In this document: positions 316 to 56,716 of the stretch, piece by piece
How the letters are laid out: every line of letters begins with the position of its first letter
How positions within the stretch are numbered: the first letter of the stretch is position 1
Assembly: GCA_902787575.1 (NCBI GenBank)
Contig: CADAGX010000014.1
Location: forward strand, 1 to 64,000
Source of the DNA: an uncultured Bacteroidales bacterium
Lineage (GTDB): Bacteria; Bacteroidota; Bacteroidia; Bacteroidales; Bacteroidaceae
DNA length: 64,000 bases
Reading direction: 5' to 3'
Made by a program: the position numbers and the translations under genes
Notes under the pieces: generated by a model
The model's database searches: none
What the model was told of the DNA's origin: nothing
Seen by the model: only the letters and a program-made list of their open reading frames with translations

Positions 316-381
316 GCCAAGCGTCGCAGGCGCCCACGCGACGCGTCGCTTTCATCTCTGTGACACGTTGCAAAGTTACGA
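316..381. repeat. 22-bp phased repeat, 3 units
   Basis: Related units begin at 316, 338 and 360, exactly 22 bp apart. Each starts with a 12-bp core resembling GCCACRCGTSGC; the unit at 338 has the perfect palindrome GCGACGCGTCGC. The third unit runs into the HU_rel -7 box. The same family is seen at 22021, 29513, 33331, 40617, 51328 and 54371. Confidence 0.7.
371..378 (-). promoter_or_regulatory. Bacteroidota -7 box (TAACTTTG) for the HU_rel gene
   Basis: On the minus strand this reads TAACTTTG and matches the TAnnTTTG consensus of the primary Bacteroidota sigma factor. It lies about 118 bp upstream of the HU_rel start. The leader it would produce runs through the 22-bp phased repeat at 316-381. 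Confidence 0.6.
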
Positions 382-11335: not shown

Positions 11336-11419
11336 TCCCCAAAGAGCATGCAGAAGAGAGTCCACAAATCCCCTCTGGGGCAAACGGAGAAAAGAGATAA
11401 ATAAGTAAATATAATTCGA

Positions 11420-12916
11420 ATGAAACTGAGAAAACTACTTTTTGCGCTGGCGGCTGCCGCATGCTGCCTCCAGCCTTGGAAGGCCGCAGCACAGGGTTTC
11501 GTAATCCACCATTCAGACGGCACGGTGACTCCCGTCCCGACCACAAACGTGGAGAGCATCACCATGGTGGGCGAAGACGACACCTACATCTTCGGCACGT
11601 GGTATCTGGGATTCTGGAAGAACGGCTCGTCGGTCCAACATTACGACGGCACTGAGTACATGGTCTTTGCCGGAAAGGAGCTCTACTGGGGCGGCAAGGG
11701 AGACGGCAAAATAGAGACCTACACTCTGCGATTCTTCACCCGCAGCGGATACTTCCTGGCAATGGGAAAGAACGGCACTTCGGGCTCACTGAAGTGGAAC
11801 ATCACCCGCAACACGGACAAACTGCTCGTACTGCAAGACGGCACCTCGTACCGCTACTTCTACCGCTCGCAGGCAGAGGCTGCCAACGCCATGATGGAGC
11901 TCGACCCACCAAGCCACAAGGAGACCAACAGCATCACCACCATCATGAAGTACGCATCGGGCAAGAGCACCAGCACCGTTACGCCCATGGGCAAGCACTT
12001 CGAAGGCAAACACCAGACCACAGACGAAGACCGCACATGGCTGGCTAATGCCGCAAACGAGCCCGACAAGGTGGCCGGACTGACACAATGGGTGGCTAAG
12101 ACCGTGAACCTCTACCCATTCGGTAGCCCAGTGGCGGCAGACATCAACCAGCACGCGATAGGCGACTGCTGCGCATGCGCCGTCTTTGCCTCGATGGCAT
12201 ACCTCTTCCCCGACTACATCAAACACATCATCAAGGACAACGGAAACAACACCTACACCGTGACGATGTACGACCCGCAAGGCAAACCAGTGGAGGTCTG
12301 CGTCTCGAACAAGATTCTCTGCAACTCGGGCGGAGGCATCGGACAGGTGACCAGCAAGAACAACGTAGTGGCATGGTCCACCATACTGGAAAAGGCCATG
12401 ATGAAGTACATGAAAATCTACCAGACGAACGGCATCGAAGGCATCGGCACCGAACACGTGGCACCGCTCTTCACGGGCTGCGGAGACAGCTTCGCCTTCT
12501 CGCCCAACTCGCTCTACACCTCCGAGCTGAAACTGGCCATCGAACACTGCCTCTCGCAAGGCATGATTTGTGTGGGCGGATTCAACGTAGGCGACCTGCT
12601 GTGCGGCACACTCAAGACCGTCACCGGACACGCCTTCACCTACATGCTCTCGACAAAGGAATCGTCCGTCTTTGCAATGCGCAACCCGTGGGGAGTGGAG
12701 GATGTGGACGGAGTGCTGGAGATACCAGACGAGCGGACAATCGTGCAAACCATAGACGCACGAATCGTTTACCCGGGCGCTGCAGAACCTTACCTGAGAG
12801 CTGACCTGCAACCCTACACACCGCCACGCTTCATTCGCCGACCCACAGACATCGGAGTGGCACCGCGACTGCTGAACCGCCATTTGTTAATGCCTAACGC
12901 CACAGAACTATGGTAA
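11420..12916 (+). CDS. Secreted calpain-like (C2 family) cysteine protease
   Basis: This 498-residue exported protein has the calpain catalytic signature. The nucleophile region is NQHAIGDCCACAVFAS with C250, the histidine is H404 in TGHAFTYM, and the asparagine is N422 in FAMRNPWGV. The order and motifs fit calpain domain II; Porphyromonas Tpr is a known calpain-like protease of this phylum. A signal peptide ends near residue 25 (KAAAQ). Residues 26-120 (HHSDGTVTPVPTTNVESI, then FGTWYLGFWKNG) form a beta-rich prodomain-like part. No calcium-binding EF hands are seen. The stop overlaps the start of the next gene by 7 bp, so the two are probably co-translated. Substrate is unknown. Confidence 0.75.
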   Translation: MKLRKLLFALAAAACCLQPWKAAAQGFVIHHSDGTVTPVPTTNVESITMVGEDDTYIFGTWYLGFWKNGSSVQHYDGTEYMVFAGKELYWGGKGDGKIETYTLRFFTRSGYFLAMGKNGTSGSLKWNITRNTDKLLVLQDGTSYRYFYRSQAEAANAMMELDPPSHKETNSITTIMKYASGKSTSTVTPMGKHFEGKHQTTDEDRTWLANAANEPDKVAGLTQWVAKTVNLYPFGSPVAADINQHAIGDCCACAVFASMAYLFPDYIKHIIKDNGNNTYTVTMYDPQGKPVEVCVSNKILCNSGGGIGQVTSKNNVVAWSTILEKAMMKYMKIYQTNGIEGIGTEHVAPLFTGCGDSFAFSPNSLYTSELKLAIEHCLSQGMICVGGFNVGDLLCGTLKTVTGHAFTYMLSTKESSVFAMRNPWGVEDVDGVLEIPDERTIVQTIDARIVYPGAAEPYLRADLQPYTPPRFIRRPTDIGVAPRLLNRHLLMPNATELW

Positions 12917-21145: not shown

Positions 21146-22018
21146 ATGAAAAGATTCTTGCCCTTCCTCGTTTTCCTGCTGCTTCACATGCTCATGGCCT
21201 GTACGACCGACTATGAGGTGGAAAACCAGCCGTCGCTGGTGGTGGAAGGATGGGTGGACGACGGAGAATTCCCCGTCGTAATACTCACAACCACGCTTCC
21301 CGTCTCCGAAAAGCGCCACGACGTTTCCGAAATCAAAGAGCACATAGCGCGCTGGGCAACCGTGACAGTGGACGACGGCGAGCGACGCGTCGTGCTTACG
21401 GGCAAGGTGGACAAAAAATATCTCCCGCCGTATATCTACACGACGAGCGAGATGCGTGGCCGTGCCGGGCGCACTTATCGGCTTACGGTGGAGTACAAAG
21501 ATTTCCACGCCGAGGCCGAAACTTACGTGCCACAGCCCGTGGCACTGGATTCGGTGCGTGTGTTGCCGTGCGACGACGATACGCTCTATCAGATTAAAGC
21601 GTGGTTTCGCGACAATCCAGCCGAGAAAAACTACTATAAGTTCTTCACCTGCGTCGGAACAGGCTCACGCATGTGGCTCAGCTCGTACATGCAAACACTG
21701 GACGACGCCATGTTTTCTCCCGGCGAAGAGGTGTGCCACACGGTATTCAAAGGTCGCATCGTGATGCACCGCGACCGCTACGTACCGTACTACACGAGTC
21801 GCGACACGTTGCTCGTGAAGTTCGCGCAGATGGACAGTGTGTCTTTTGCGTTCTGGAACCAGATGGAACACAACATGACGCTCGGCAACTCGCCACTCAC
21901 AGCCTCGCGTCGGAATCCCAGCTTCAACGTGCGCGGTGCCTTGGGCTACTGGTGCGGTTATGGCGCCACCGTCTGGCCTGTGACGATAGGCGACAGCATT
22001 CGCCACATGCAGAAATAA
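21146..22018 (+). CDS. DUF4249-family lipoprotein
   Basis: A 290-residue outer membrane lipoprotein with lipobox LHMLMAC (C19) and the DUF4249 start pattern (TTDYEVENQPSLVVEGWVDD). It has repeated beta-sandwich-like segments (YRLTVEYKDFHAEAETYVP) and a typical late region NPSFNVRGALGYWCGYG. It lies 6 bp downstream of the TonB-dependent receptor and is probably its surface partner. Function of the family is not established. Confidence 0.85.
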   Translation: MKRFLPFLVFLLLHMLMACTTDYEVENQPSLVVEGWVDDGEFPVVILTTTLPVSEKRHDVSEIKEHIARWATVTVDDGERRVVLTGKVDKKYLPPYIYTTSEMRGRAGRTYRLTVEYKDFHAEAETYVPQPVALDSVRVLPCDDDTLYQIKAWFRDNPAEKNYYKFFTCVGTGSRMWLSSYMQTLDDAMFSPGEEVCHTVFKGRIVMHRDRYVPYYTSRDTLLVKFAQMDSVSFAFWNQMEHNMTLGNSPLTASRRNPSFNVRGALGYWCGYGATVWPVTIGDSIRHMQK

Positions 22019-22020
22019 AA

Positions 22021-22108
22021 ATGCCACGCGTGGCAACTAAGAATGCCACACGTGATAATTACGAATGTCACACGTGATAATTACGAATGCCACACGTGAT
22101 AAAAAAAA
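22021..22108. repeat. 22-bp phased repeat, 4 units
   Basis: Units begin at 22021, 22043, 22065 and 22087, exactly 22 bp apart, with the core GCCACACGTG or a variant; the first has the perfect palindrome GCCACGCGTGGC. The array starts 3 bp after the DUF4249 stop codon. Confidence 0.8.
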
Positions 22109-22243: not shown

Positions 22244-22274
22244 GGGCATTTTTTTTATCCGACCAAATATTTTC

Positions 22275-22627
22275 GCAACTTTAACGTATTGGAATGTCGA
22301 AATTACATCCACTCGGCAGAAAAAAGAAACGACTTTCTTTTGTTCTGCACTCGACTTTTCGTAACTTTAACGTGTGGGAATGTTGAAGTTACTCCGGCTC
22401 GGCAGAAAAAAGAAACGACTTTCTTTTGTTCTGCACTCGACTTTTCATAACTTTAACGTGTGGGAATGTTGAAGTTACTCCGTCTCGGCAGAAAAAAGAA
22501 ACGACTTTCTTTTGTTCTGCACTCGACTTTTCGTAACTTTAACCTGTGGGAATGTTGAAGTTACTCCGTCTCGGCAGAAAAAAGAAACGACTTTCTTTTG
22601 TTCTGCACTCGACTTTTCGTAACTTTG
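22275..22627. repeat. Four tandem 86-bp repeats before aroA
   Basis: The block beginning GGCAGAAAAAAGAAACGAC recurs at 22315, 22401, 22487 and 22573, an exact 86-bp period; the first copy is more diverged. Each unit has a short hairpin (AAAGAAA-CGAC-TTTCTTT) and a second inverted repeat formed by GTAACTTTAAC and GTTGAAGTTAC. Units end in a near-promoter TAACTTTA; the last junction reads TAACTTTG (22620-22627), a proper -7 box. Confidence 0.9.
22620..22627 (+). promoter_or_regulatory. -7 box TAACTTTG for aroA
   Basis: TAACTTTG at the end of the 86-bp repeat array, 36 bp upstream of the aroA ATG. Confidence 0.6.
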
Positions 22628-28989: not shown

Positions 28990-29409
28990 ATGAATCAGGA
29001 ATCAGAAATAATTTTCGGCCTCGACGAGATAGACCAGGCGGCGACCCGTTTTCTGGAAGCACTGGGCGAGAGGCGCATTGTGGCCTTCTACGGCTCTATG
29101 GGCGCAGGCAAGACCACGTTCATCCGCGCGCTGTGCCGCCAACTTGGCGTGGAGGACACCGTGACGTCGCCCACGTTTGCACTCGTCAATGAGTATCGCA
29201 ACCGTCAGGGCGACAGCATCTTTCACTTCGACTTCTACCGCATTCGCCGACTTGCGGAGGCCATCGACATGGGTTGCGACGAGTACTTCCAGAGCGGCCA
29301 CCTGTGTCTGATAGAATGGCCCGAGCTGGTGGAAGAACTGCTGCCCGCCGAGACGCTGCGAGTCGCCATTCAGGAGACGCCCGACGGCCTGCGACACCTG
29401 ACGCTCTGA
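28990..29409 (+). CDS. tsaE: tRNA threonylcarbamoyladenosine biosynthesis ATPase
   Basis: TsaE is the ATPase that supports the TsaBD complex in making t6A at position 37 of ANN-decoding tRNAs. The 139-residue protein has Walker A GSMGAGKTT (35-43), the switch motif SPTFALVNEY and the conserved FHFDFYRI and IEWPEL motifs. An in-frame TTG at 28942 abuts the porX stop, but the ATG at 28990 starts the family-like sequence and is preferred. It lies about 48 bp after porX and is probably co-transcribed. Confidence 0.93.
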   Translation: MNQESEIIFGLDEIDQAATRFLEALGERRIVAFYGSMGAGKTTFIRALCRQLGVEDTVTSPTFALVNEYRNRQGDSIFHFDFYRIRRLAEAIDMGCDEYFQSGHLCLIEWPELVEELLPAETLRVAIQETPDGLRHLTL

Positions 29410-29512: not shown

Positions 29513-29578
29513 ACCACACGTCGCAATTCCGGATGCCACACGCAGAAACGAAAAAACGACACGTGGAAACAACGAAAA
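29513..29578. repeat. 22-bp phased repeat, 3 units, in the metF leader
   Basis: Related units begin at 29513, 29535 and 29557 (ACCACACGTCGC, GCCACACGCAGA, CGACACGTGGAA), spaced exactly 22 bp. The array ends 5 bp before the metF start codon. Confidence 0.65.
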
Positions 29579-29582
29579 GGCG

Positions 29583-30536
29583 ATGAACGTAACGCAACTC
29601 TTGCAGCAGAAAAACGGCACAGCATTCTCGTACGAAGTGCTGCCACCGCTCAAAGGCACCGGCACGGCCAGCCTCTTTGAGACCGTGGAGCGCTTGGCAG
29701 AATTCCAGCCAAGCTACGTAAACATCACCACACACCGCAGCGAGTACGTCTATCGCGAGCGGCCAGACGGACTTGTCGAGCGGCTGCGCATACGCCGCCG
29801 CCCAGGCACCATCGCCATAGCCGCAGCCATTCAGCAGCGATACGGCATCCACGTGGTGCCGCACGTGGTATGCAGCGGCAACGACCGCGAGAGCATCGAG
29901 TACATGCTGCTCGACCTGCAGTTTCTGGGCGTCAGCGACCTGCTGGTGCTGCGCGGCGACAAGGCGCGCGAGGAAGCCAGTTTCCATCCCACGGGCGACG
30001 GGCCGCGATTTGCCACCGAACTCATCGAGCAAATAAACGCGTTCAACAGCGGACGATTCGCCGACGGCTCGAAAATAGAGGTGCCGGGCGAACCTTTCCG
30101 CTTTGGTGTGGCCTGCTACCCCGAGAAGCACGAAGAGGCGCCAAACATGGAAAGCGACATGGCCGTGCTTCGCAAAAAGCAAGACATGGGCGCCGGCTAC
30201 GCCGTCACGCAGTTGTTCTACGACAATCAGAAGTTCTTTCGTTTCGTGGAGCGAGCCCGCGCCGCCGGTATCACCATTCCGATTATTCCGGGCATCAAGC
30301 CGCTAAGTAAAAAAAGTCAGCTCACAACGCTGCCCCGCACGTTTCGTTGCGACCTGCCCGAAGCGTTGCGCGCCGAGGTGGCACGTTGCGCATCCGACGA
30401 AGAGGCCAAGCAAGTGGGCATCGAGTGGTGCATCGCCCAGTGTCGCGAACTGATGCAGTACGGCGTGCCGAGCCTGCATTTCTACACGGTGAGCGCCGTA
30501 GACAGCATTTGCCGCATAGCAAAAGAAATATACTGA
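29583..30536 (+). CDS. metF: Methylenetetrahydrofolate reductase
   Basis: MetF reduces 5,10-methylene-THF to 5-methyl-THF with FAD and supplies the methyl group for methionine. The frame is open from 29274, but the ATG at 29583 begins the family sequence (MNVTQLLQQKNGTAFSYEVLPPLKG), giving 317 residues. Conserved segments are SYEVLPP (catalytic Glu region), YVNITTHRSEY, DLLVLRGDKARE and GYAVTQLFYDNQKFFRFVE, with IPGIKPLS near the substrate site. Upstream lies a 173-bp spacer with a 22-bp repeat array; holB follows 27 bp downstream. Confidence 0.94.
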   Translation: MNVTQLLQQKNGTAFSYEVLPPLKGTGTASLFETVERLAEFQPSYVNITTHRSEYVYRERPDGLVERLRIRRRPGTIAIAAAIQQRYGIHVVPHVVCSGNDRESIEYMLLDLQFLGVSDLLVLRGDKAREEASFHPTGDGPRFATELIEQINAFNSGRFADGSKIEVPGEPFRFGVACYPEKHEEAPNMESDMAVLRKKQDMGAGYAVTQLFYDNQKFFRFVERARAAGITIPIIPGIKPLSKKSQLTTLPRTFRCDLPEALRAEVARCASDEEAKQVGIEWCIAQCRELMQYGVPSLHFYTVSAVDSICRIAKEIY

Positions 30537-33330: not shown

Positions 33331-33418
33331 GCCACGTGTAGTTTCATCAAAAACTACACGTAGTTTTTGCTCATGCCACGTGTAGTTTTTCATCACGCGA
33401 CGCGTCGCATTCAGAGCG
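33331..33418. repeat. 22-bp phased repeat, 4 units
   Basis: Units begin at 33331, 33353, 33375 and 33397, each 22 bp. Cores are GCCACGTGTAGT (twice), ACTACACGTAGT and the perfect palindrome GCGACGCGTCGC. The array ends at the stop codon of rodA and separates convergent gldH and rodA, where the paired cores may also act as a bidirectional transcription stop. Confidence 0.8.
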
Positions 33419-34900
33419 TCAACGCTGCATGCGGTTGCGTGCGGCGTCGATGCGCAGGAAAATGAAGAGCAGAATGGTGAATCCCCACAGCGAGGAGCCG
33501 CCGTAACTGAAGAAGGGAAGCGGGATGCCGATGACGGGCGTCAGGCCCAGCACCATACCCACGTTGATAAACACATGGAAGAGGAAGATGCTCAGCACGC
33601 AGTACCCGTAAATCCGCCCGAAGGCGAAAGGTTGTCGCTCGGAGAGATGTATCAGCCGTAGTATGAGCGCCAGGAAAAGGAAGAGCACCACGGCACAGCC
33701 CAAGAATCCTTCCTCCTCGCCCACCGTGCAGAAAATAAAATCTGTGTCCTGCTCAGGCACGTATTTGAGCTTCGTCTGAGTGCCATTGAGGAATCCTTTT
33801 CCGCGTAACCCGCCCGAGCCAATGGCAATCTTCGCTTGGTTTACGTTGTATCCCTTGCCCTGCGGGTCGTCGAGAAGGCCCAGAAGCACCTGTATGCGCT
33901 TTCGTTGGTGGTCTTCGAAGATGTGGTTCATGGCGTAATCGGCCGAGTAATGTACTCCAAGCGAGCCCAGCGCGAAGAGTGCGACGTAGAGATACGACAT
34001 CAGCCGGTCGCGCAAAGCCAGATACAGCAAGGTCAGAATAATAATGATACACGCAGAGAGCTGCACCCACACGATGTCGAACGGAATGACATAGCGCGAG
34101 AAAAGATAGGCCACAAGCGTGGTACCGACTCCGCCGGCAAGCACGCCGCGGAAAACGGAGCGTCGCTCTGTGTAGCGCCACAGCAGGAAGGCTGTAAATG
34201 CCTGTATGAGAAGCAAGACCAGGAAGGGTCCCAAGTGAGCCGTCGGCACGCCGGAGAGCGGAACCTCAGCGAAGCGAACGCCCACGACAAAGTACACAAC
34301 GGCAGACACGGCGGCAAAGAGCAGGCAGCCGGGCATTCCCTCGCGATAAAACATCAGGAAGAAACTCAGGTACACAAGCGCCGAACCGGTCTCCTTCTGC
34401 AGCACGATGAGCAACATGGGCACCACAATGACGGCTGCCGCAATGACGAAATCGCGCCAGCGGCCGACATTGAAGCCGTTGCTACTCATCACCTTGGCCA
34501 CGCAAAGCGCCGTTGCAAACTTGGCGAACTCCGCCGGCTGAATGCTGAAAGCACCGATTTTTATCCACGACAGGGAGCCTTTGATGTCGCGGGCAAAGAA
34601 AGGCGTGGCAATGAGCACAATAATGAAAAGCAAATAGATGAAGTAGGAAAGCCACTCCATGAAGCGGTCGTCAATCGACAGCAGGATGAGGGCAATGACA
34701 AGCGAGCTGCCAATCCATACGACCTGCATCCCGGCGCGTGTGGAGAAGTCGAAAAAATCCAGCGGCTGGCCGAAATCGTAGCTGGCACCGCACACGCTGA
34801 GCCATCCCAAGCCCATCAGCACGACGTAGATGAGTATCGTGAGCCAATCAACGGACCGCAGGAGTCCGGGCTGCCTATTGTTTTGAATCTGGTTCGGCAT
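33419..34900 (-). CDS. rodA: Peptidoglycan glycosyltransferase RodA
   Basis: RodA is the SEDS-family polymerase that makes glycan strands during cell elongation with PBP2. An earlier ATG exists at 34939, but MPNQIQNNRQPGLLRSVDWL at 34900 is the likely start (493 residues). Multiple membrane spans are visible, and family motifs include GSLSWIKIGAFSIQPAEFAKF, LQKETGSALVYLSFFLMFY, QAKIAIGSGGLRGKGF, EQDTDFIFCTVGEEEGF and IPLPFFSYGGSSL. The start overlaps the 3' end of mrdA by 26 bp. It is the last gene of the shape cluster. Confidence 0.94.
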   Translation of the reverse strand: MPNQIQNNRQPGLLRSVDWLTILIYVVLMGLGWLSVCGASYDFGQPLDFFDFSTRAGMQVVWIGSSLVIALILLSIDDRFMEWLSYFIYLLFIIVLIATPFFARDIKGSLSWIKIGAFSIQPAEFAKFATALCVAKVMSSNGFNVGRWRDFVIAAAVIVVPMLLIVLQKETGSALVYLSFFLMFYREGMPGCLLFAAVSAVVYFVVGVRFAEVPLSGVPTAHLGPFLVLLLIQAFTAFLLWRYTERRSVFRGVLAGGVGTTLVAYLFSRYVIPFDIVWVQLSACIIIILTLLYLALRDRLMSYLYVALFALGSLGVHYSADYAMNHIFEDHQRKRIQVLLGLLDDPQGKGYNVNQAKIAIGSGGLRGKGFLNGTQTKLKYVPEQDTDFIFCTVGEEEGFLGCAVVLFLFLALILRLIHLSERQPFAFGRIYGYCVLSIFLFHVFINVGMVLGLTPVIGIPLPFFSYGGSSLWGFTILLFIFLRIDAARNRMQR

Positions 34901-40536: not shown

Positions 40537-40616
40537 GCCGCAAAAATATAGATTCCCCGAGAAGGTGCAAAATTTAGCACGTTAAACTTTCTGAAACGAC
40601 CTGTAATTTTTCATTT

Positions 40617-40682
40617 GCCACGCGTCGCAGCGCGTCTCGCCACACGTGGCATTTCGTCACGCCACAGGTCGCAAAAGAGGGT
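40617..40682. repeat. 22-bp phased repeat, 3 units
   Basis: GCCAC begins at 40617, 40639 and 40661, exactly 22 bp apart (cores GCCACGCGTCGC, GCCACACGTGGC, GCCACAGGTCGC). A degenerate unit may precede at 40595. The last unit runs into the rplS terminator. Confidence 0.75.
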
Positions 40683-51309: not shown

Positions 51310-51327
51310 CTGTTAAAAACAGAAAAA

Positions 51328-51371
51328 CGACACGCTAAGATAAGAAAAACGACATGAAGAAGCTACTCCTT
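51328..51371. repeat. Degenerate 22-bp phased repeat reaching the GH3 start codon
   Basis: CGACACGCTAAG at 51328 and CGACATGAAG at 51350 are 22 bp apart. The second unit contains the ATG of the GH3 gene at 51354. Confidence 0.4.
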
Positions 51372-53581: not shown

Positions 53582-54334
53582 ATGCACACTACAAACATTC
53601 GCACGCTCTGCGTGCTTCTGCTCCTGGCCGCCGCTGGCATCACGGCTACGGCCGAGGACAAAGTGCTCTGCGTCGGCAACTCCTTCACGTTTGTGAACGA
53701 CGCACACCTGCGACTGGCCGAACTGGCCGAGAGTCAGGGCCGCGACATCAAGGTGAAGGCCGTCTTCGAGGGCGGGTACACCTTCCGCCGCCATCTCTGC
53801 AACGACAAAACGCTGAAAGCACTCTCGGGCGGTCCATACGACTACGTGTTCCTGCAAGACCAGAGCCAGACGCCGGCCTATCTGGCCGAGTCGCCAAAGC
53901 GCTGCCGCCTGGTGCTGCGCGATGCAAAGGAACTGGCCGACCGCGTTCGTATCTATTCGCGCGATGCCAAGATATGGATCGAGCAGACGTGGGCCTACGA
54001 AAAGGATAACTTCGGCAACTTCGGCTCGTGGGAGAACTTCGACCGTATGCTGCGCCGCGGCGCAAAGAAGATGGCTCGCAAGTCGCATGCCAGCGTCTCG
54101 CCCATCGGCGATGCCTTTGCCCTCTGCCGGCAGGAGCGTCCCGACATCTCGCTCTACAAGGACGACCGCCATCATCAGTCCGAAGCAGGTGCATACCTGA
54201 AGGCCTGCGTGAACTATCTGCTCATCTACGGTGAGCCGTTCAACGCCGAAGCCACCGCCTGCGGACTCGATGCCGAGCAAGCTGCCTACCTGCGCCACGC
54301 AGCCGAGCGCATCGTACTGAAACTGAAAGACTAA
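53582..54334 (+). CDS. SGNH-hydrolase-like DUF4886 protein
   Basis: An exported 250-residue protein with the SGNH/GDSL outline: a nucleophile-type block VLCVGNSFTFVND, then GGYTFRRHL, FLQDQSQTPA, and a late D-x-x-H block KDDRHHQSEAGAYL. This fits the DUF4886 group, proposed to be carbohydrate esterases or related hydrolases. The signal peptide is LLLLAAAGITATAE. It begins 8 bp after the GH3 gene, suggesting that the two act on the same glycan (inference). Confidence 0.8.
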   Translation: MHTTNIRTLCVLLLLAAAGITATAEDKVLCVGNSFTFVNDAHLRLAELAESQGRDIKVKAVFEGGYTFRRHLCNDKTLKALSGGPYDYVFLQDQSQTPAYLAESPKRCRLVLRDAKELADRVRIYSRDAKIWIEQTWAYEKDNFGNFGSWENFDRMLRRGAKKMARKSHASVSPIGDAFALCRQERPDISLYKDDRHHQSEAGAYLKACVNYLLIYGEPFNAEATACGLDAEQAAYLRHAAERIVLKLKD

Positions 54335-54370: not shown

Positions 54371-54480
54371 ATGCGACGTGTGGCATGACGAAATGCGACG
54401 TGTGGCGTGACGAGATGCGACGTGTGGCGTGACGAGATGCGACGCGTGGCGTGACGAGATGCGACGCGTGGCGTGAAGCG
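54371..54480. repeat. 22-bp phased repeat, 5 units
   Basis: ATGCGACG begins at 54371, 54393, 54415, 54437 and 54459, exactly 22 bp apart. Read on the other strand the unit core is GCCACRCGTCGC followed by ATCTCGTCAC, the same family as the arrays at 316, 22021, 29513, 33331 and 40617. Confidence 0.9.
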
Positions 54481-54502
54481 AAACTACACGTCGCGTGAAA
54501 AC

Positions 54503-54540
54503 AAAGAACGCGTTCTTCCATCGGGAAGGACGCGTTCTTT
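54503..54540. terminator. Bidirectional terminator between convergent genes
   Basis: A 15-bp stem AAAGAACGCGTTCTT pairs with AAGGACGCGTTCTTT (one mismatch), flanked by CTTTTTC on the plus side and by TTTGTTTTC on the minus side. It lies between the SGNH gene and the fasciclin gene. Confidence 0.85.
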
Positions 54541-54568: not shown

Positions 54569-56716
54569 TCACCAAGTGTCTTCGGGCGTCTCGGGATTGT
54601 CGTAAATCTCCTTCGGACAGAGTTCGATGTAGTCGAGATAGAACTCGTTCGTATTCTGGTCGAGTATAGATTTAAACCGCAGATAGTACGTCTGGTTGGG
54701 GTCCAACGTCTGGCGCGTGAGAATTCGGCGCTGGATGCGCGGGTCGCGACGCTCGGTCTCATATCCGTCGCCCTTGATGCCGTTGATTCCCTTCATTGCA
54801 CCGTTGTTGCGCATACGCTTGTCCACCTCGGCCGTATAGTCCAAATCGTCGTTATCGGGCTCATAGCCAGACTCCCACGCATCGAGATTCTTGCGAATGT
54901 CGATGGGAATACCGGTGATGGGCAGGTTTTTGGGGTTGGAACCAAAGTACACCTGCATGATACCACGCGAAGGAGTGGCCAATACCTTGTATCGCACCTC
55001 GTAAACACCGCGACGCGGCACAGGCGGGAGCGTAATCATCATGTCGTAGTTGCCCACAGCCTTCATCTCGTCGTTGCGATAGAGCAGCCAGCCGTAGCCG
55101 TAGCCGTTGAAGTACACGAACTTGGCATCTTCGTTGATGCTGAAATTATTGAAATACTTGTACACGTGGTCGGGTGCGATGTAAACGTACTGATAACGAG
55201 ACTCGGTGGAGTTCTTGCGGCGAATCTCGTTGGTCATAGCCTCGGGGAAGAGCGACATTCCGTCGAATCGGATGCGATCTTTGGCCAAACGGTCGCGCGT
55301 GATATCGTCGTAAGCAAGCGGCGCATCGATGGGATAAACCGCAGCATTGACGATGTCATTCACGATGGTCAGCGAGTCATCGCGCAGCACCCTACAACCC
55401 ACCTTTCCGGGATCGCAGTCAATCTCGTAGCCTGTGCCCTTGCGACCGTTGTCGCAAATGGGGAAACGATTGAGGCACACACCGTTGCTCATAGACGATT
55501 CGTAAATCTTTATGAGGCGACGCTTGCCCATCGTGGTGTAATACTCGTAAACGGGCACAGTGTACTTGTACGGCGTGCTACGATTGTAGCCAGCCTCGTT
55601 CTCGTGGTAAACCAGTTTGTCGGCTGCCACGCGGAACGGCAGGATGTGGTACGTGAGCCACTGATAGAGCATGTTGGAGGACGACGTGTAGTTGTCGTCG
55701 GCCACAAAGTTGTCTTCGTCGGAATACTGATGATTGTCCACAATCCACTGCATGAGCTTCTCCAGTGCATCGGGTGCCGTCGGGTCGATGCCCTGCGAAC
55801 GCCAGAACTCGTCTTTCTCGGGGAAGAGTGTGAAACCGTACTTGCGGTGCTCGGGCATACAAGCCGATGCGCCACGATAGGTGCCGTCCTTCTGGTCCGA
55901 GAACCATCCGCCGTCCACTCTCAGGAAGTGGTCCAAGTCTTTGATTTCGCCACGCTGATAGAGGTCTTCGTACACCTCGTCGCGTACCTTCTCGAGCGTA
56001 TCCATCAGACCGCAGGCTTGCAGCGCGCGGCAGAAGAGCAGGATGCCCTCTTGCTTTGTCTCTACAATCTCCTCGAAATACGAGGCGGCATTGATGTCGT
56101 TGGGTGCAATGACCTTGTGAACCTGATACAGCACACCGTTGAGCACAAGGATGTTGCGATTCCGCTCGTCTATCTCGCACTCCCCATTGATGTAGTAGTG
56201 GTCGAGCTCCGTCTCAGGCCAGTAAACAGTAAGCTTACGGTCGTTGAGGTTGGCCAGCGGGAACTCGCTGTTGTTCTCGGTGGGGAAGAGACCCAGCACA
56301 TAGCGCTGCGTGTTCTCATCCTTGCCGTCGATAATGCTGTTGCGCACAATGACGGCCCGGATGGAGTCGAGCTTCGTGCTGTCGGGGAAAGCTTTGAAGG
56401 CGTCCCACGTCGAATCAGCTATGACCTCCTGCTCCACCAGCGTCTTCAGATACTCGTGGATAGCCTGGTTCGTGGGCACGAAACAAGTGAAGTTTCCACG
56501 CGCAGAGAGCAACTGATAAACCGTAGAAGTACTCAGTCGGCTGACGGGCACCTTCTTGAGCATGTACAAGTACTCGGAATACACATCGCTGTGATTCTCG
56601 AGATAGGAGATGACTGTACTCTCCCTGAAGACGTATCGCGCAGAGGTGTCCACCTCTTCCTTGCAGCCGGCGAGCAGCAACAGGAGGCAAATGCACGAAA
56701 GAAAGATTCTTTTCAC
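54569..56716 (-). CDS. Fasciclin-domain lipoprotein
   Basis: A 715-residue surface lipoprotein (lipobox LLLLAGC, C18). Residues about 30-200 match a fasciclin (FAS1) domain: VISYLENHSDVYSEYLYMLKKV, GNFTCFVPTNQAIHEYL and ILVLNGVLYQVHKVIAPND. A second FAS1-like part may follow (YLHMLEKV-like DTLEKVRDEVYEDLYQ). The C-terminal third is beta-rich (RGVYEVRYKVLATPSRGIMQVYF, YYLRFKSILDQNTNEFYLDYIELCP), suggesting a carbohydrate-binding-like module. Such lipoproteins often accompany Sus-like surface systems. It lies 144 bp downstream of the giant discoidin-like gene on the same strand. Confidence 0.78.
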   Translation of the reverse strand: MKRIFLSCICLLLLLAGCKEEVDTSARYVFRESTVISYLENHSDVYSEYLYMLKKVPVSRLSTSTVYQLLSARGNFTCFVPTNQAIHEYLKTLVEQEVIADSTWDAFKAFPDSTKLDSIRAVIVRNSIIDGKDENTQRYVLGLFPTENNSEFPLANLNDRKLTVYWPETELDHYYINGECEIDERNRNILVLNGVLYQVHKVIAPNDINAASYFEEIVETKQEGILLFCRALQACGLMDTLEKVRDEVYEDLYQRGEIKDLDHFLRVDGGWFSDQKDGTYRGASACMPEHRKYGFTLFPEKDEFWRSQGIDPTAPDALEKLMQWIVDNHQYSDEDNFVADDNYTSSSNMLYQWLTYHILPFRVAADKLVYHENEAGYNRSTPYKYTVPVYEYYTTMGKRRLIKIYESSMSNGVCLNRFPICDNGRKGTGYEIDCDPGKVGCRVLRDDSLTIVNDIVNAAVYPIDAPLAYDDITRDRLAKDRIRFDGMSLFPEAMTNEIRRKNSTESRYQYVYIAPDHVYKYFNNFSINEDAKFVYFNGYGYGWLLYRNDEMKAVGNYDMMITLPPVPRRGVYEVRYKVLATPSRGIMQVYFGSNPKNLPITGIPIDIRKNLDAWESGYEPDNDDLDYTAEVDKRMRNNGAMKGINGIKGDGYETERRDPRIQRRILTRQTLDPNQTYYLRFKSILDQNTNEFYLDYIELCPKEIYDNPETPEDTW

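Follow-up and report, generated by a model that had tools for sequence, protein, structure and literature searches.

Intergenic arrays of palindromic units at a constant 22-bp step in a genus of Bacteroidales: candidate operator-like clusters at transcription-unit borders

Introduction

Iterons of Rep3-type replicons recur at a 22-bp step on one face of the DNA and lie beside the replication gene. REPs, as characterized in the accessible sections of their description, are species-specific intergenic palindromes that occur near gene ends and in convergent gaps, with several types per genome (PMC3733652). BrickBuilt of Porphyromonas gingivalis is a tandem repeat of one sequence family with a 23-nt step, 19 copies and up to 22.8 units, and features a leader and a tail with inverted-repeat ends, according to the accessible part of the report (PMC4596501). 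The TAACTGA direct repeats of Beggiatoaceae and some Bacteroidetes display one heptamer across phyla, and most of those in the main genome immediately precede start codons (PMC4679880, accessible part). In addition, the helically phased sites of H-NS have made cooperative nucleoid-protein binding nucleated at phased sites an accepted idea (PMC5418058, accessible part).

A stretch of 64,000 nucleotides from an uncultured Bacteroidales bacterium (hereafter named the window) contains intergenic arrays that were compared with these systems. They resemble REP/BIME elements in being extragenic, species-specific, palindromic, present in many copies, near gene ends and of several types in one genome. 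However, they run head to tail at a fixed 22-bp step that persists where the sequence does not, are as frequent in divergent as in tandem gaps, do not maintain stem pairing in the source species (variable pair at chance, centre below chance) and lack a constant association with RAYT. On inspection, GTAG and CGTC occur inside the units and appear to lie within the core, and not as an unpaired foot. Like BrickBuilt, as far as the accessible text describes it, the arrays are tandem repeats of comparable length that lie between genes, are dispersed through one genome in the Bacteroidales and are confined to one species (PMC4596501), whereas the 23-nt step is found neither among the exact-core distances nor among 113 steps in the source species. 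Inspection of 36 chains with short flanks showed no evident flank common to arrays. The TAACTGA repeats likewise form many intergenic sets of short direct repeats beside unrelated genes (PMC4679880, accessible part). The H-NS case differs in that a single operon has two high-affinity sites separated by about 10 turns, with no genome-wide fixed-step arrays in the accessible text (PMC5418058). A Rep3 iteron copy in the congener G149 is not palindromic, and Rep3 was not found in the source genome.

REP/RAYT elements, BrickBuilt and Rep3 iterons each differ from the arrays in a feature that was tested, and the helical phase of the arrays is fixed regardless of sequence, as would be expected of a cooperative operator array. 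No description of such arrays was found in the open-access literature, which is not proof of their absence from it; a constant step with changing sequence is not described in the accessible portions of PMC3733652, PMC4596501, PMC4679880 and PMC5418058, and the accessible text of PMC5771137 contains no 22-bp repeat.

Materials and methods

The source genome is a draft of 2,645,154 bases (2.65 Mb) in 34 contigs with a completeness of 86.9%, and the window corresponds to bases 1-64000 of its contig C14. The sample of this genome, 464 kb, comprised the window and parts of contigs C1, C2 and C3. The comparison set consisted of 139 genomes of the genus, namely the source genome and 138 congeners. 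The first congener sample covered 800 kb from 30 species, on contigs known to be long from earlier matches and read from base 1; the enlarged sample covered 1.452 Mb from 36 species after the addition of stretches of seven species (G116, G046 and more of G005, G149, G035, G130 and G152), some of them chosen for cores or arrays seen there.

Arrays were detected either by a motif-free lag scan, in which segments self-similar at a given lag are compared across lags, or by a motif-based unit search that retained units scoring high or having a partner 22 or 44 bp away. The latter favours 22 equally over 21 and 23 and cannot gauge the rarity of other steps, whereas the list of exact-core distances carries no such filter and by itself supports the argument on the step. 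Two-unit chains, which had a loose threshold and lay in many cases inside genes, were left out, and contexts are based on arrays of at least three units or on the lag scan. Gene calls in the location counts came from a purpose-made dicodon caller.

Arrays in the window

Seven arrays with an exact 22-bp step had been noted in the window, six of which were borne out with three to six units each (Table 1). The claimed seventh, at 51328, was too weak and was not accepted, as 51327..51360 contains two partial units, the second of which overlaps a start codon at 51354. The step of 22 holds mostly, and single steps of 21 occur between 29535 and 29556 and between 40596 and 40617. With one mismatch allowed, the window contains 23 cores and seven pairs at +22, versus a mean of 5.9 cores (maximum 14) and zero +22 pairs in 100 order-2 Markov sequences.

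Table 1. Arrays and a neighbouring hairpin in the window (positions from the first base of the window)
Feature	Position	Strand	Units and remarks
3-unit array	316..371	.	cores 316, 338, 360; possible degenerate fourth near 294 (by reading)
4-unit array	22016..22102	.	units 22023, 22045, 22067, 22089
3-unit array	29513..29567	.	units 29513, 29535, 29556; steps 22 and 21
4-unit array	33331..33408	.	units 33331, 33353, 33375, 33397
Array, three strong units and one weak	40596..40672	.	40617, 40639, 40661; weak 40596, step 21
6-unit array	54371..54494	.	units 54373, 54395, 54417, 54439, 54461, 54483
Terminator-like hairpin with T tail	54503..54540	+	directly after the array at 54371, separate from it

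The array at 22016 lies directly past the stop of a forward gene (21188-22018; DUF4249, PF14054) and faces a reverse-strand tRNA-Pro gene at its 3' end, while that at 29513 is flanked by a tsaE-like gene (28990-29409) and an MTHFR-like gene (29583-30536), both on the forward strand. Two arrays follow reverse-strand genes: the one at 33331, which contains both half-site types, GTSGC and GTAGTT, is 11 bp past the stop of a rodA/ftsW-like gene (33419-34900), and the one at 40596 is 74 bp past the stop of the gene for ribosomal protein L19 (40746-41120). The units of the array at 54371 are near-identical (96% matches), and this array occupies a convergent gap between the genes 53582-54334 (+) and 54569-56563 (-), the former of which is present in 4 of the 139 genomes, the source genome included. 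The search that returned the terminator-like hairpin at 54503 found one such element versus a mean of 0.5 in shuffles.

Core and step across the source genome

The exact 12-bp core GCSACRYGTSGC occurs in 300 copies in the source genome versus 9 for the reversed-pattern control, so that the genome-wide recurrence expected from the window is seen as an enrichment of about 33-fold. In the 464-kb sample, 65 exact cores were found, and their distances of up to 120 bp were 22 (28 cases), 44 (20), 66 (8) and 88 (3), the remainder being 43 (2), 65 (2) and 87 (1). Variable spacing in other arrays would have spoken against the original prediction; the exact-core distances are multiples of 22 or a single base short of one. 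The deviations are one-sided, with -1 in five cases (43, 65 and 87) and never +1. Allowing one mismatch raised the number of cores to 127 and added the distances 21, 33 and 91, one of each. The motif-free scan of the same sample gave 17 segments at lag 22, 12 at the harmonic 44 and at most two at any other lag of 12-43.

Arrays of at least three units by motif number 35 in 464 kb, about one per 13 kb (~75 per Mb). Their 113 steps comprise 101 of 22 and 9 of 21, with 42, 43 and 44 once each; steps of 20, 23 and 24 are absent from these 113, in a search biased towards partners at these two distances, 22 and 44. In relaxed B-DNA, two turns measure 21 bp. A CRISPR array was ruled out, as the spacer bases recur and one whole 22-mer is matched at 31 places with no more than three mismatches.

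Unit architecture

In the source species, an RY centre separates the two inverted half-sites of the unit (GCSAC-RY-GTSGC), and AACTAC/GTAGTT occurs as an alternative half-site. Across 148 units, the conserved bases are AC-RY-GT, flanked by C and G. In the same units, Watson-Crick pairing at the variable positions 2/9 is seen in 29% versus 34% expected (association p=0.65), and the centre pair is complementary in 26% versus 51% expected (AC 58, GT 47, GC 37, AT 2). Bases within a half-site are tied to one another (0 and 2, p=1.3e-9; 11 and 9, p=6.5e-11; 148 units). Across the dyad, positions 0 and 11 are weakly associated (p=0.015), and 0 and 9 are associated at p=1e-4; the near-invariant positions 6 and 8 also correlate. 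The most frequent words among 188 half-sites are GCGA (76), GCCA (49) and ACTA (25). Since variable dyad partners do not covary and bases within a half do, the half-sites of the source species are words that combine nearly freely; a hairpin would forbid such mixing, whereas a dimer reading each half separately would allow it.

A second dyad in the spacer was considered and dropped, because the apparent peak at 11 bp from the core dyad arises largely from identical base comparisons counted twice in a periodic sequence. With permuted unit columns, 39 of 77 arrays were above the 95% level, and no clear symmetry of the spacer emerged. A wider search past the array ends for foreign dyads in register gave 0.281 at 22, but 0.294 at 11 and 0.282 at 60.

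Arrays in congeners

The exact core of the source species occurs in 0-22 copies in each of the 138 congeners (reversed control, 0-19), and the richest congener, G116, contains 22 versus 1 for its control. In the motif-free scan of 36 congeners (1.452 Mb), lag 22 gave 93 segments, lag 21 gave 8, lags 18 and 36 gave 7, and every other lag of 14-43 gave fewer than 7. At least one lag-22 segment was present in 22 of the 36 congeners, and the samples of 14 contained no array. In the first sample of 30 species (800 kb), 35 segments were found at lag 22 and 31 at lag 44, no other lag of 12-43 exceeding 7; in 20 genomes from other families of the order (273 kb), lag 22 gave one segment and lag 23 gave three. 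The congener units are mutually unrelated in sequence, as exemplified by GGTTAACC in G024, AACACGTTAACTTCGAAAACTT in G052, TATACGTATA in G003, inverted AAGCGC/GCGCTT in G053 and CTGCAG in G022. That the sequence varies between arrays and the step does not, originally proposed from the window, is upheld far beyond it by this comparison.

The sequence turnover extends to close relatives. G005, G149 and G035, with RodA identities of 97-98% among them, gave 55 segments at lag 22 in 360 kb and six in all at the other lags of 14-30; 11 of the 24 lag-22 segments of G149 fall in one plasmid-type replicon region (L271:12573-16964), so that not all of them are arrays of the chromosomal type. Each of the three genomes holds several families, CCCTATAGGG, AAGGAATACTAATACCTT and AAAGACCTATACCTCTTT, plus an NNCRYGNN group with differing flanks. 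In the same 255-bp gap, with flanks 97-98% identical, G005 carries five CCCTATAGGG-type units and G149 carries four GGCGTGCC units and a degenerate fifth. The same-family distances in the three genomes are 22 (48 cases), 44 (34), 66 (11) and 65 (1). Moreover, unrelated unit families share one register in two arrays (L265 near 11361-11427 and L278 near 11700-11744), and a third mixed array (L271 near 7310) contains related words in one register. Seven of nine inter-family distances of up to 70 bp are 22, 44 or 66, several of these distances stemming from one array and at least one lying between related words. The half-site words of G149 and G005 include TTAA (31), TCGA (22) and ATGG (16) among 154, as well as TTGG and others, often mixed within a unit.

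Genomic location

Among 99 arrays found by the motif-free method in 11 genomes, 95 lie between genes, one is mainly in a gene and three are at a contig edge; by the motif method, 6 of 35 arrays of the source genome overlap a called gene. Among the gaps of at least 100 bp in the 11 genomes, an array is present in 21 of the 44 that are convergent, in 43 of the 209 tandem ones and in 16 of the 77 divergent ones (convergent versus remaining gaps, p=2.5e-4). In tandem gaps, the array is closer to the stop in 39 of 46 cases, with a median of 24 bp to it versus 196 bp to the next start. Mapping to gene ends thus places the arrays near stop codons and most commonly in convergent gaps. TAnnTTTG, a Bacteroidetes promoter-like motif, separates the array from the start that faces it in 75 of 92 cases, with a density 2.7 times higher in the gene direction than against it; before control starts, it is present in 181 of 288. 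Considering that arrays lie near stops, with this promoter-like motif between the array and the facing start, they stand between transcription units.

The flanking genes are unrelated and include those for RodA, L19, MTHFR, TsaE and sigma-54, among others (20 scanned). In 49 gaps with both neighbours conserved between the source species and a congener, an array was present in both in one case, in the source species alone in 8 and in neither in 40, the nine cases with an array in the source species stemming from only three of its gaps; with one shared array in 49, positional conservation is not claimed. After rodA, a 22-step array stands at the same place in 9 of 30 loci, the source locus included, with differing sequences, and the two nearest relatives by RodA, G157 and G025 (76 and 74%), have no array after rodA. 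Upstream of rpoN, 6 of 30 loci have a lag-22 score of at least 22, and after rplS an array is present in the source locus only, of 30.

Proposed mechanism and alternative explanations

With somewhat more belief than doubt, we regard the arrays as operator-like clusters for a putative cooperative dimeric protein, marking the borders of transcription units. Each unit would offer two inverted half-sites to a putative dimer, and dimers every 22 bp, or two helical turns, would bring neighbours onto one face of the DNA and permit cooperative binding. The constancy of the step across unrelated sequences, the one-sided errors, the half-site words and the near-exclusion from genes point to dimers touching along one DNA face. 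The preference of the protein would drift and its sites would follow, giving each species its own words, while the protein-protein geometry would hold the step. A border function, as a roadblock or insulator between neighbouring units or as a chromosome-domain anchor, would be the likeliest job, because the arrays are located at transcription-unit borders, near stops, outside promoters and mostly in convergent gaps. Selection on phasing, through cooperative binding on one face or a chromosome-organising site, had been suggested from the window and is supported by the enriched core and a step that outlasts the sequence. Among 722 predicted proteins, a search of paralogs, clusters and small basic proteins for the binding protein gave nothing specific.

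Neutral or selfish minisatellites, arisen by tandem duplication and spread by some route, would owe their 22 bp to the duplicating machinery and not to selection on binding; we judge this explanation unlikely. Tandem duplication contributes to the arrays, because adjacent spacers of one array resemble each other more closely than spacers of different arrays do (5.2 versus 3.6-4.6 of 10), and the near-identity of the units at 54371, the differing unit number at the same place in close relatives (four in G149, two in G035) and the mostly non-conserved array position agree with it. However, minisatellites would not be expected to keep one length in many unrelated families and species, to place different families in one register, to mix half-site words inside units, or to show one-sided step errors and near-exclusion from genes.

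An RNA-level element, in which tandem hairpins in 3' untranslated regions protect or end transcripts, is a still less probable explanation. The start of arrays shortly past the stop in tandem gaps and their abundance between convergent genes would suit it, and arrays fold better as RNA than array-less gaps do (mean z -2.86 for 91 arrays versus -0.94 for 143 gaps). In addition, two overlapping terminator-like matches on the reverse strand (22022-22055) are built of array units themselves, and most dyad position pairs correlate in three congener groups (G149+G005; G035; G052+G130+G152), as a hairpin predicts. This correlation, which may come from the pooling of families, was counted against the binding-site reading, as were the fruitless search for a binding protein, the associations 0/11, 0/9 and 6/8 in the source species, the RNA folding, the spacer likeness, the mostly non-conserved positions, the motif-based arrays that overlap genes, the frequency of TAnnTTTG before control starts and the congener samples with no array. 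Contrarily, arrays are as frequent in divergent gaps, which have no 3' untranslated region, as in tandem ones, covariation of the variable dyad positions is lacking in the source species, nothing evident in RNA would call for a fixed 22-bp step, and the terminator-like hairpin at 54503 is separate from its neighbouring array.

A REP family mobilised by a RAYT-type transposase, or a MITE, is very improbable as the source of the arrays. The arrays share with REPs, as these are presented in the accessible part of PMC3733652, the species-specific, palindromic and intergenic character, the several types per genome and the placement at gene ends and in convergent gaps, and RAYT-like matches at E<=0.001 were found in 88 of 139 genomes, the source genome included (67 bits, cut-off 80). 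However, the RAYT model is above its cut-off in 9 of 139 genomes only, and the array-bearing congeners G024, G012, G054, G130, G036 and G014 gave no RAYT match, single absences being weak in such drafts. Y1_Tnp is above its cut-off in 18 of 61, with the G035 copy being of the IS200 type, and on either side of the RAYT-like gene of the source genome (C1:149938-150339) more than 3 kb intervene before the nearest exact cores, at 146711 and 153450, exact cores alone being considered.

Chromosomal iterons, serving as sites for Rep3-type plasmid initiators or as decoys against such plasmids, are the least credible source, for although 22-step iteron-like repeats adjoin a Rep3 initiator and ParA in G149 and 30 Rep3 loci (102 kb) hold 23 segments at lag 22, along with 13 at lag 24, Rep3 matches occur in 31 of 139 genomes and are absent from 108, including the source genome (86.9% complete) and the array-bearing G016, G054, G003 and G027, and the units of the source species are palindromic and recur in about 75 arrays per Mb.

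The operator-like reading can be extended to a genus-wide, fast-rewritten border code, a tentative proposal that we doubt somewhat more than we credit, in which a putative cooperative protein or paralogs forming mixed dimers would coat arrays of fixed pitch at transcription-unit edges, the words changing and only the 22-bp pitch being conserved. Each genome would then possess a small vocabulary of half-sites, with words that differ between close relatives. If true, bacteria would have an insulator system that keeps its geometry although its sequence evolves in the manner of eukaryotic centromeres or recombination hotspots. Conservation of the spacing and not of the sequence reverses the usual picture of repeats and binding sites. 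If the arrays are read by a protein, a pull-down in a single species would be enough to uncover a new nucleoid or insulator protein of gut Bacteroidales, and the many species that use different words at the same pitch would constitute a natural experiment in which a DNA-binding domain and its sites change together.

Other repeats observed

Several further repeats were encountered. In the window, an 86-bp unit in 4.2 head-to-tail copies (95% matches) lies at 22270-22626, shortly beyond the tRNA-Pro gene. After rodA in G032, G125 and G131 (L205, L207 and L211), inspection showed repeats of about 40-41 bp on CCCGGG-type hairpins and no 22-bp arrays. In G141 (L201 and L231), the words AACTAC and TGCGAC of the source species recur, by inspection, next to AGCAAGCAG, a partner that does not complete the palindrome, as though half of the unit had been replaced. 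Contig C3 of G149 contains a plasmid-type replicon (L271:11072-16964) beside GH43 and GAF genes, comprising a Rep3 initiator (PF01051), a ParA-type ATPase, a small partner and many 22-step repeats, including the iteron-like GGTGCGAAACTTCGGAACACAT.

The uncultured Prevotella sp. Red_deer_2_mag_11 (L016 and L113-L115) contains 191 exact cores in 4.9 Mb versus 5 for the control, and five lag-22 segments were found in 60 kb of its sequence; the 22-bp array phenomenon may thus reach a second lineage. Of 25 core-matching loci, eight belong to Isosphaera sp. PR.3.33 (L013, L019, L021, L022, L024, L028, L031 and L032) and comprise two cores within a single long palindrome; most of the remaining matches outside the Bacteroidales look, by inspection, like single pairs. 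The Isosphaera palindrome, about 42 bp in length and starting with GTTAGCGACGCGTCGC, is dispersed over eight contigs, perhaps as a small mobile palindrome of that planctomycete.
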